Source: an uncultured Flavobacteriales bacterium (lineage in GTDB: Bacteria > Bacteroidota > Bacteroidia > Flavobacteriales_D > Crocinitomicaceae). From it: DNA of 64,000 nucleotides. The stretch lies in the NCBI GenBank assembly GCA_903945495.1, contig CAJAVU010000006.1:1-64000 (forward strand), read 5' to 3'. A model generated the notes under the pieces. That model had not been told where the DNA came from, made no database searches, and worked only from the letters and a program-made list of their open reading frames with translations. The position numbers were made by a program, and so were the translations under genes. Positions 61,252 through 63,889 of this stretch are shown in pieces. Within the stretch, counting starts at the first letter, position 1; each line of letters begins with the position of its first letter.

Positions 61252-62133
61252 ATGAAATTCGGTGCAATCGATATTGGAACCAATGCCGCTCGACTACTCG
61301 TTGGAGAAGTTGAAAAGGAAGGAGAACATTCGTTTGTAAAGAAAATATCTTATACACGTGTTCCTTTGCGCTTGGGTGAAGAAGTGTTTGATGACGGAAA
61401 AATTTCAAAAAAGAAAACTGAAGATTTTGTAAAAACGATTCAAGCGTTTAAGTTGATTTCTGAGATTTTTGATGTGAAAAAATTGCGTGCTGTTGCCACT
61501 TCAGCCATGCGTGAAGCCGTTAATTCCGAAAAAATAATTGAAAAAATTCTGGAAGAATCAGGTGTTCAAATTGAAGTGATCAGTGGAGATGAAGAAGCTG
61601 AATTAATTTTTGGAACCTTCTTCTTGCTCGATTTTGATAAAACGCATCCTTTCATTGTCATTGATGTTGGTGGAGGTAGCACCGAAGTCAGCGTGTTTGA
61701 AAGTGGTGAACGTGTGGCCTCAAAATCATTTGAAATTGGGACGATTCGTTTGCTAAAGGAAAAAGTAAAGAAAGATATATGGACGGAAATTCATGATTGG
61801 ATTGCTTCTCATGTTGATTTGAAATCACCACATCGCTTATTTGGAACTGGTGGAAACATCAATAAAGTTCACAAAATGCTGGGTGCTGGACAATTGGAAG
61901 CGTTATCAGTGAAGGCCATTTCAACATTGCGTAACGAATTAGCTGAACTAAGTGTTTCGCAACGTGTCGATCAATTTCAATTAAAACCAGACCGTGCAGA
62001 CGTAATTGTTCCTGCGATGGACATTTATTTATATATCCTGAAAGAGCTCAAAGCAAAAGATATTCTCGTTCCAAAAATCGGCTTATCTGATGGAATGATT
62101 TATCAAATGCATTTAAATAGTAAGAAGAAATAG
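61252..62133 (+). CDS. Ppx/GppA-type exopolyphosphatase/pppGpp phosphatase
   Basis: A 293-residue phosphatase of the actin-like ATPase fold with N-terminal GAIDIGTNAARLLVG (phosphate-1) and IDVGGGSTEVSVFESG near residue 135 (phosphate-2). It is short for the family because the C-terminal HD domain is missing, as in many Bacteroidota. It would cut polyphosphate, or pppGpp in the stringent response; the sequence does not tell which. It is 6 bp after der and likely in one operon with it. It converges with the TonB genes. Confidence 0.92.
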   Translation: MKFGAIDIGTNAARLLVGEVEKEGEHSFVKKISYTRVPLRLGEEVFDDGKISKKKTEDFVKTIQAFKLISEIFDVKKLRAVATSAMREAVNSEKIIEKILEESGVQIEVISGDEEAELIFGTFFLLDFDKTHPFIVIDVGGGSTEVSVFESGERVASKSFEIGTIRLLKEKVKKDIWTEIHDWIASHVDLKSPHRLFGTGGNINKVHKMLGAGQLEALSVKAISTLRNELAELSVSQRVDQFQLKPDRADVIVPAMDIYLYILKELKAKDILVPKIGLSDGMIYQMHLNSKKK

Positions 62134-62136
62134 GAA

Positions 62137-62844
62137 TCAAACCAGTTTGAACGCAATTGGCAAAGTAAAATACATTTTCACATCTTTACCATTCATTCTT
62201 CCTGGTTTCCAATTTGGCATATTTTTAACCACACGCATCGCTTCCTTGTCACACTCTAGACAGTCTACAACGCCACGTACAACGCGTACATTTGAAATCG
62301 AGCCATCGGTATTTACAATGAAGCGCAAATAACATTTGCCTTGTATCCCTGCCTCTTTCGCACTCATGGGATACATCATATTTTTTTTGAGATATTCACG
62401 CATGGCATCCATTCCGCCGGGGAACTCTGCAGGTTCGTCAACAATTTCTAAAATATCACTTTCGACACGAATTTCTGGTATTGGAGCTGGTTCCACGTCT
62501 CCATAATAATCATCACTGCCTTTCTGTGTTTTAGCCGACCAATCAATATCCGTAATGTCCTGAACAGTTGGAGGATATTCATCGTCATACTCAACGATTT
62601 TTGGAGGTGTAAATTGAATTACACGTTTTTGCTTTGGAACATTGATCGTTTTTGCAGTTGCAGTGGATCGAGCATTGGAAGAAGATGTCTGAGCTGGTGA
62701 CTTAGTAGTTGTTTTCCCCTCAGATACTTCTTTTGCGGTTGTTTCAGCTTTGATATCTTTTTGCTCTTTTACACTATCCGCACATGCACTTGACAATCCG
62801 ACAAGCACAACACCCAAAAACAAGCTTACTCTTTTAACAACCAT
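62137..62844 (-). CDS. TonB C-terminal domain lipoprotein
   Basis: A 235-residue protein with a lipoprotein signal (MVVKRVSLFLGVVLVGLSSAC, lipobox SSAC, Cys21), a long low-complexity linker, and a C-terminal TonB domain (EFPGGMDAMREYLKKNMMYP, YLRFIVNTDGSISNVRVVRG, CDKEAMRVVKNMPNWKPGRM). Classical TonB has an N-terminal transmembrane helix that contacts ExbB/D; a lipid anchor cannot do this, so it is probably a regulator or scaffold instead of an energy transducer. It ends 3 bp before the convergent Ppx/GppA gene. Confidence 0.85.
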   Translation of the reverse strand: MVVKRVSLFLGVVLVGLSSACADSVKEQKDIKAETTAKEVSEGKTTTKSPAQTSSSNARSTATAKTINVPKQKRVIQFTPPKIVEYDDEYPPTVQDITDIDWSAKTQKGSDDYYGDVEPAPIPEIRVESDILEIVDEPAEFPGGMDAMREYLKKNMMYPMSAKEAGIQGKCYLRFIVNTDGSISNVRVVRGVVDCLECDKEAMRVVKNMPNWKPGRMNGKDVKMYFTLPIAFKLV

Positions 62845-62862
62845 TCTTTTACTTTTGAACCA

Positions 62863-63753
62863 CTAATTTAAACGAAAAACAACGGGAATTGTCATATAAA
62901 CCTTACACGCCTTGCCATTGTTCATTCCTGGTTTCCAATCTGGCATTGCTTGAACTACTCTTCTCGCCTCTTTATCACAGCCTGGTCCTCCATTTACACC
63001 TCGTAGCACTTTAACATCAGAAAGCTTGCCAAGCTCATCCACAACAAAACGAAGATATACCTTTCCTTCGATGCCATTTTCGAATTCCATCTCTGGATAC
63101 TTGATGTTGTCCGCAAGGTACTTTTTCATCGCTTCCATACCTCCTGGAAATTCGGGCATTACTTCTGCATAGCCTAAAATTTCATCCTCAGCTTTTTGTT
63201 TAAGCTCTGGAACTGGTTCAATAATCGGTTCACCTAAAAAATAAGGCTCTGGATAGGGTTCTGGCATCGGTCCAGGATTATAATACGGTGGTACCACTTC
63301 TGGAATTATCATTTTTTTAACTGGTTTTGTTGATGCTTCGTCATCTGTTGATTTTTTGTTGGTTGGTTCAATTGCAACTTCACCCATCGTTCGTTCGCCA
63401 GTTAATTCAACTTTTGGCTTATCCTTCACCGAATTCTTTTGCGGAGCCTCGCTACACGCAGCCAAACTCAAGCATAACAAAGAAAGTACTAAAAACGAAC
63501 TGTTCCCTCCTTTTTTACTCAGTGTATCAACAATTAATGGTACATCTTCATGTTGGAAATCAAATTGCTTGTAATTCATTCTACCACAGATTTTTTTATC
63601 AGAATTTTCCATTATATAGGTAATTATTTCGACGCGATTCATTTGTGTAAAATCCATCACAGATTTCTCACAAGCGGCACAATGACGTGATTTCAAACCG
63701 ATGCGCATGTTGTTCCAATCTTCTGAACACGGTTCATTTATTTTTACTTGCAT
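62863..63753 (-). CDS. TonB C-terminal domain protein with N-terminal Cys motif and lipobox
   Basis: A 296-residue protein with an unusual N-terminus. An 80-residue Cys-containing segment (INEPCSEDWNNM, RHCAACEKSVMDF) of a type seen on Bacteroidota TonB-like proteins precedes a single hydrophobic helix (residues 85-99) that ends in the lipobox-like LAAC with Cys100. The C-terminal TonB domain (EFPGGMEAMKKYLADNIKYP, GCDKEARRVVQAMPDWKPG) is closely like that of its downstream neighbour, 18 bp away. The N-terminal part should face the cytoplasm. Whether the internal lipobox is used is unclear. Confidence 0.85.
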   Translation of the reverse strand: MQVKINEPCSEDWNNMRIGLKSRHCAACEKSVMDFTQMNRVEIITYIMENSDKKICGRMNYKQFDFQHEDVPLIVDTLSKKGGNSSFLVLSLLCLSLAACSEAPQKNSVKDKPKVELTGERTMGEVAIEPTNKKSTDDEASTKPVKKMIIPEVVPPYYNPGPMPEPYPEPYFLGEPIIEPVPELKQKAEDEILGYAEVMPEFPGGMEAMKKYLADNIKYPEMEFENGIEGKVYLRFVVDELGKLSDVKVLRGVNGGPGCDKEARRVVQAMPDWKPGMNNGKACKVYMTIPVVFRLN

Positions 63754-63889
63754 ACTTTCAAATTTACGTAAGCTGTTACATGTATCAAGTAGATTGGTTC
63801 ACTGGGAATAGATCGAAATTAAAAAAGAAAGTAGAATCAACTTAGGATTTCCTGTCAATCTTATACCAAACTATACAAGTCTATCTGAA

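Follow-up and report, generated by a model that had tools for sequence, protein, structure and literature searches.

A conserved four-cysteine domain ahead of an apparent internal lipoprotein signal in a TonB_C protein of a Crocinitomicaceae bacterium

TonB is taught as an anchored rod that is powered by ExbB and ExbD, and the Bacteroidota are rich in TonB-dependent receptors. In SusC, the domain PF13715 is described as preceding a TonB box with the sequence VDEVVV (PMC7782687). A literature search covering titles and the beginnings of abstracts yielded no item describing lipid-anchored TonB proteins or the four-cysteine domain considered below. Here, we analyse two adjoining genes, referred to as A and B, from an uncultured member of the Crocinitomicaceae; the window is the whole stretch of 64,000 nucleotides in which they lie.

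Two TonB_C genes and their setting

A sequence-only reading of this DNA had placed two TonB-domain genes at positions 62137-63753, and both open reading frames indeed exist and match the Pfam model TonB_C. Gene A (62863..63753, minus strand) encodes 296 aa, comprising an N-domain, a proposed internal lipoprotein signal, a linker and a TonB_C domain, whereas gene B (62137..62844, minus strand) encodes 235 aa with a predicted lipoprotein signal, a linker and a TonB_C domain. According to the list of open reading frames, B lies downstream of A on the same strand, separated by 18 bp. The TonB_C domains, located at residues 216-295 of A (62869..63108, minus strand) and 155-234 of B (62143..62382, minus strand), are far above the Pfam cut-off (E 7e-16 for A and 5.4e-17 for B), and the last ~118 residues of A share 50% identity with B (over 118 aa), in agreement with the earlier description of the C-terminal halves as close paralogues. 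In a structural model of A derived from 21 sequences, the blocks from residue 191 on reach pLDDT values of 84-93, and a Foldseek comparison with TonB C-terminal structures gave a best E of 2.6e-6; judged by this model, the TonB_C fold of A appears intact. The closest named relative is a Crocinitomicaceae MAG, with 80% identity to A.

The sequence-only reading had described the downstream gene as a TonB-domain lipoprotein, and B does carry what appears to be a lipoprotein-type signal. Its N-terminus, MVVKRVSLFLGVVLVGLSSAC, includes Cys21 (62782..62784, minus strand), the proposed lipidated +1 cysteine of the motif LSSAC, which fits the looser, SPII-like lipoprotein pattern and, with its Ser at position -3, does not fit the strict lipobox [LVI][ASTVI][GAS]C. 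Only six codons separate an in-frame stop from the ATG of B. Selection was assessed by pairwise dN/dS against G134, the genome most closely related to this one. By this measure, residues 1-21 of B are poorly conserved (dN 0.67, dS saturated; 17 codons), with values of dN 0.68 and dS 1.69 for the linker and dN 0.136 and dS 1.70 for the TonB_C domain. The signal of B retains its type, with the G134 copy ending in ISC, and not its sequence.

A second TonB_C gene adjoins A in 3/40 family loci, the one in the window counted (among the matches listed), and the tandem arrangement of A and B is a local feature. A possible Bacteroidota-type promoter (TTG N19 TANNTTTG; 63759..63788, minus strand) lies just ahead of the ATG of A, but the pattern occurs three times in the window against 2.25 expected, so that the candidate does not rise above chance. 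The gene at 61252-62133, identified by eye as encoding a Ppx/GppA-type protein, converges on B and A. Such a gene lies near A in 10/30 nearer and 0/10 more distant family loci (short flanks; among the matches listed). Moreover, three genomes from a different family, f41 (L165, L166 and L170), have an N-domain gene that converges on an immediately adjoining Ppx/GppA-like gene, either because an ancient gene order was kept while the exported part was exchanged or by coincidence. The next gene upstream of A, in the same orientation and mostly beyond the window (contig C6, 63918-67361, minus strand; L114:919-4362), encodes a protein of 1147 aa whose N-terminus looks signal-like and for which Pfam gives no match. 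A homologue is found beside A in 19/30 nearer and 0/10 more distant family loci (among the matches listed), and the protein is a possible operon partner of A. Gene neighbours point to no binding partner for A or B.

It had also been argued that A and B are hard to fit to the normal TonB model. This view stands in so far as, by sequence, neither protein shows a standard ExbB-type transmembrane anchor and neither gene lies beside exbB or exbD, but the implied paradox finds no support: anchor-less TonB_C proteins are common in the class, and a canonical tonB is encoded elsewhere in the genome. Five TonB_C domains in this genome exceed the Pfam cut-off, located in A, in B and in proteins encoded on contigs C102, C22 and C107. 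On C102, what we identify by eye as the canonical tonB stands behind an ExbB-family gene and two exbD-like genes (also by eye); C22 carries another TonB with a transmembrane (TM) anchor (by eye), and the C107 protein has TonB_C together with a weak match to CarboxypepD_reg and an N-terminus that looks like a signal. Matches to the ExbB family (MotA_ExbB) occur in this genome on C102 and C94 only, with none on C6.

Among 64 TonB_C reading frames of the class, taken from 50 loci (30 among the matches listed and 20 hand-chosen for short frames, a choice that favours anchor-less proteins), a rough script called 31 TM, 10 SPI-like and one SPII-like and left 22 unassigned; many of the unassigned show a visible SPI signal, and the SPII-like one is a miscalled TM TonB by eye. 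It is thus common for TonB_C proteins of the class to lack an ExbB-type anchor. Within the home family, by comparison, the script finds an SPII signal in 13/24 TonB_C reading frames without the N-domain (B included), and four more have a likely cysteine by eye. Lipid-anchored TonB_C proteins thus seem to be a trait of this family that is rare in the wider sample. In three family genomes, runs of TonB_C lipoproteins stand beside a TM-anchored TonB, as judged by eye (L053:1738-4406, L054:1870-4677 and L061:17-2248).

The front domain and the apparent internal signal of A

The N-terminal Cys-rich segment and the LAAC motif noted earlier in A both proved to be conserved. Residues 1-80 (63514..63753) form the N-domain with its four cysteines (Cys9, Cys25, Cys28 and Cys56); it is followed by the KK-flanked short hydrophobic region of the proposed internal signal peptide (residues 81-99; 63457..63513), by Cys100 (63454..63456), the proposed lipidated +1 cysteine of the lipobox L-A-A-C, which is supported by family conservation, and by a proline-rich, fast-evolving linker (residues 101-195; 63169..63453), all on the minus strand. 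A search of 200 genomes of the family returned at least 38 matches that span nearly all of A and at least two more that match its front, with the N-domain and TonB_C both present in 40/40 (among the matches listed). The family set of 42 proteins, A included, unites these 40 matches with L008 and L009, two paralogues from the same genome that lack TonB_C. Cys9, Cys25, Cys28, Cys56 and Cys100 are kept in all 42, more than expected by chance; position -1 to Cys100 is Ser, Ala or Gly in 42/42, and position -3 is Leu in 35 and Phe in seven (among the matches listed). The looser lipoprotein-signal pattern fits 41/42 of these proteins and the strict lipobox only 29/42 (among the matches listed), and the proposed lipobox assignment is based on conservation and on these sequence patterns.

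The helix said to end at LAAC is present, although it is better described as a short stretch that is signal-like in length, with a median of 15 residues (range 1-17; script, 41 proteins) compared to 23 in the canonical TonB of this genome. Relative to G134, dN is 0.00 at a dS of 1.08 over residues 81-100, 0.076 at 0.97 over residues 1-80 and 0.048 at 0.82 over residues 191-296, as opposed to 0.369 at 1.18 over linker residues 101-190. A is thus kept as protein in its front domain and signal, while its linker drifts. The reading frame of A is open for 15 codons ahead of its ATG, and the chosen start agrees with that of relatives.

Relatives in the wider class are informative about the site at which the hydrophobic stretch ends. 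The class loci comprise 30 among the matches listed, A being one of them, and 40 hand-picked regions, so that the class fractions are not unbiased estimates. The 79 proteins collected were reduced to 74 by dropping those of up to 110 aa or with a hydrophobic segment starting before residue 60, whereas 75 of 76 rows were kept for family scans and Cys counts, one containing an X being dropped; this row was retained in the Q-site test, where it is among the 26 sites reported here. In 34 of the 74 proteins, a lipobox ends the hydrophobic stretch. Of the 40 without it, 26 show an SPI-like small-x-small-Q site at the same place, compared to a shuffle expectation of 7.5 (the shuffles preserve composition only, and the relatives are not independent), and 14 have no Q-site. 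Such sites accord with the Q-rule published for signal peptidase I of Bacteroidetes (PMC5837995). The tandem sisters L076 and L077 carry both versions, FGCAQ and FGHAQ. The earlier suggestion of an internal lipobox in A is thus strengthened by family-wide conservation and by the SPI-like sites in relatives. Since a lipobox or an SPI-like Q-site follows the N-domain in most of these class proteins, we take Cys100 to be, most likely, part of a cleavable signal peptide in the interior of the protein rather than of a transducer anchor, and the N-domain would represent the enlarged n-region of this signal. Lipoprotein signals are not usually preceded by a domain of 80 residues, which might hinder processing. 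The genome contains one Lgt and one LspA match, each above cut-off, as well as M50-family proteases. The surface-lipoprotein export signal (LES), described as K-(D/E)2 or Q-A-(D/E)2 near the cysteine (PMC5080379), is not seen in A (CSEAPQK) or B (CADSVKE), while some relatives fit it, such as L015 (CKEDN).

The N-domain itself is widespread. A profile that includes the signal stretch matches 97/295 sampled class genomes and 62/156 genera, with up to 16 candidates scored per genome, and the cysteines are retained class-wide (Cys25, Cys28 and Cys56 in 75/75 proteins, Cys9 in 74/75). Pfam and NCBIfam scans found no model for it. Its AlphaFold2 model has medium confidence (pLDDT 74); a Foldseek search against the PDB gave no match (best E 3.6), and VIA-align over 143 chains gave no lead (best Z 2.4, rmsd 2.9, 50 aligned), which does not show that the modelled fold is new. 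Sub-threshold matches inside N-domains to a RING-type zinc finger (L156, E 0.035) and to DUF7808 (L009, E 0.05) hint at metal binding at best, and, judged by the Cys pattern only, the domain may hold a metal. Stand-alone N-domain proteins were considered and set aside: in the short ones (L154, L066 and L141), coding continues behind a stop or frame change, so that they are probably broken genes or assembly (MAG) errors. The tally of 288/296 obtained when the phylum was searched with the class alignment at full length was likewise set aside, as it mostly reflects CarboxypepD_reg matches in large receptors.

Exported parts of N-domain proteins

What follows the signal varies across the class. 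Pfam scans of the 75 class proteins returned 12 families, led by CarbopepD_reg_2 (26), CarboxypepD_reg (20), TonB_C (11) and Por_Secre_tail (11), with the remaining eight represented by one to three members each, and NCBIfam returned 18, led by SusC/RagA (19) and the T9SS sorting domain (11); no family name in either list suggests an N-domain model. Upon rescanning of ten proteins, six matched positions 1-85 of the SusC/RagA model, its N-terminal extension, at 33-66 bits (curated cut-off 368), and the other four gave no SusC/RagA match. The T9SS tails, found in 11/75 class proteins as well as in L071 and in L008 from the same genome as A, imply that the C-terminal part of these proteins is meant to leave the cell. 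L008 (L008:1495-2403) displays LFSC after its hydrophobic stretch together with its T9SS Por_Secre_tail and is a possible lipidated T9SS cargo.

PF13715 was found in 8/8 proteins without a lipobox that were hand-chosen for Pfam, and in several no-lipobox proteins this domain is followed by [ML]GEVV[IV] close to the C-terminus. A itself contains TMGEVAI at residues 122-128 (63370..63390, minus strand), a copy of the family-enriched motif [ML]G[EDK][VI] that resembles in sequence the Bacteroidota TonB box as given for SusC (VDEVVV, PMC7782687). We counted 32 copies of this motif across the 74 class proteins, with 2.2 expected from shuffles, and likewise 32 across the family set of 42 (among the matches listed), with 2.0 expected, counts that are to be read with the motif having been picked after viewing the same sequences, the relatives not being independent and the shuffles keeping composition only. 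It is present in 18/34 lipobox and 9/40 other class proteins. These observations lead us to suggest that the N-domain family often exports one or the other side of the TonB/TonB-box contact. In the SPI-type proteins L125, L127, L145 and L134, short basic, aromatic C-terminal tails (e.g. WWKFWK) follow the TonB-box-like motif.

Interpretation and comparison with known systems

We consider it probable that A and B are periplasmic TonB_C modules that are tethered to the membrane and unpowered, as opposed to energy transducers, and that the N-domain of A stays in the cytosol and is cut off on export, a reading derived from their architecture, its conservation, the selection acting on it and the signal statistics of relatives. 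B would be a conventional lipoprotein cleaved before Cys21. In the precursor of A, the four-Cys domain would remain in the cytosol while the internal type II signal (residues ~81-99) inserts in an N-in orientation; processing by Lgt and LspA at Cys100 would yield a 197-residue lipoprotein, consisting of a flexible proline-rich linker and TonB_C, and the N-domain would be left on the cytosolic side, joined to the signal remnant. M50-family proteases could clear this remnant, as described for RseP in E. coli (PMC8144685). At the outer membrane, mature A and B would then bind partners that carry a TonB box or CarboxypepD_reg, acting as adaptors, competitors or tethers that draw no power from ExbB/ExbD. 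While we infer the lipidation, cleavage, topology and binding partners of A and B, the job of the N-domain is a matter of guesswork. It is tempting to speculate, although we regard it as rather unlikely, that a Bacteroidota-wide, uncatalogued four-Cys domain splits off on export and stays in the cytosol, where it would report on the TonB-dependent envelope or regulate it in step with export. This domain would hold a metal site and be fused in front of an internal cleavable SPI or SPII signal, and the exported part would often be half of a TonB/receptor contact (TonB_C, or a SusC-type extension with a TonB-box-like strand).

Three other explanations were weighed. The periplasmic part of A could sense the state of TonB or of a receptor, as in FecR-like signalling, with proteolysis freeing the N-domain for transcription. 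The topology is alike, M50 proteases are present in the genome, and E. coli RseP is reported both to clear signal peptides and to generate a cytoplasmic FecR fragment (PMC8144685). However, the Pfam and NCBIfam lists contain neither FecR nor an anti-sigma family, and sigma-70 domains were detected in only 3/91 scanned neighbours at 20 class loci from 18 genomes (91 of 127 neighbour reading frames, those below 700 aa, were given to Pfam). Two of them, at L169 and L178, are not adjacent to the N-domain gene, each lying one gene away from it. An anti-sigma role was set aside on these grounds, and we judge FecR-like signalling as a whole to be improbable.

It is likewise improbable, in our estimate, that A is a bitopic signal-anchor protein whose stretch stays uncleaved; as such, it would be TonB-like, bear a cytosolic sensor domain and might still touch ExbB. 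Purifying selection on the front domain agrees with this notion, as does the net charge of 0 to +4 ahead of the stretch in the 42 family proteins (among the matches listed), which fits an N-in topology. Yet the stretch is short, the invariant cysteine has lipobox-like neighbours, SPI-like Q-sites replace the lipobox in relatives, T9SS tails occur on relatives, and the ExbB-family genes sit on other contigs. Finally, an internal start (e.g. Met59) that would turn A into a second ordinary TonB_C lipoprotein is hardly credible, for although codon 59 is ATG in 28/42 family members, an ATG lies 14-40 residues ahead of the Cys in only 7/42 (both among the matches listed), purifying selection acts on the N-domain (dN 0.076, dS 0.97), and its cysteines are conserved class-wide (75, 75, 75 and 74 of 75).

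If A and B are tethered, unpowered TonB_C modules, the receptor-binding end of TonB would be offered by lipid-anchored-looking proteins as opposed to an anchored, powered rod. Moreover, a Cys4 domain that precedes an apparently cleavable signal in 97/295 class genomes is hard to explain by targeting alone, and what it does after export becomes a testable question in tractable Bacteroidota.

With canonical TonB (PF03544, the energy transducer acting with ExbB/ExbD), A and B share the TonB_C domain and fold and a proline-rich spacer, but they have a lipobox in place of the ExbB-type transmembrane anchor and do not lie beside exbB/exbD. They resemble the stand-alone periplasmic TonB_C proteins of Bacteroidota, which have SPI signals, in lacking an ExbB-type anchor and differ from them in being predicted to be lipid-anchored and, in the case of A, in the additional N-domain. 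Sister N-domain proteins recall the N-terminal extension of SusC, since they contain PF13715, in some cases followed by [ML]GEVV[IV], much as SusC is described to have PF13715 and then VDEVVV (PMC7782687). Unlike SusC, these sisters have no plug or barrel, and A and B carry the partner side of the contact (TonB_C). The long signal sequences described for autotransporters (PMC2805444) similarly place extra sequence ahead of a cleavable Sec signal, whereas that of the A family spans ~80 residues, has four invariant cysteines and exists in SPI-like and SPII-like versions. FecR, as described in PMC8144685, resembles A in its cytosolic N-terminal domain, single hydrophobic segment and periplasmic part, and its link to TonB-dependent uptake (PMC8144685) counts as a further likeness; A, however, has no FecR match, and its hydrophobic segment looks like a cleavable signal. 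Among these features the apparent lipid anchor is unusual, and still more so is the conserved domain that precedes the signal of A; it is this internal-signal architecture that is the new part.
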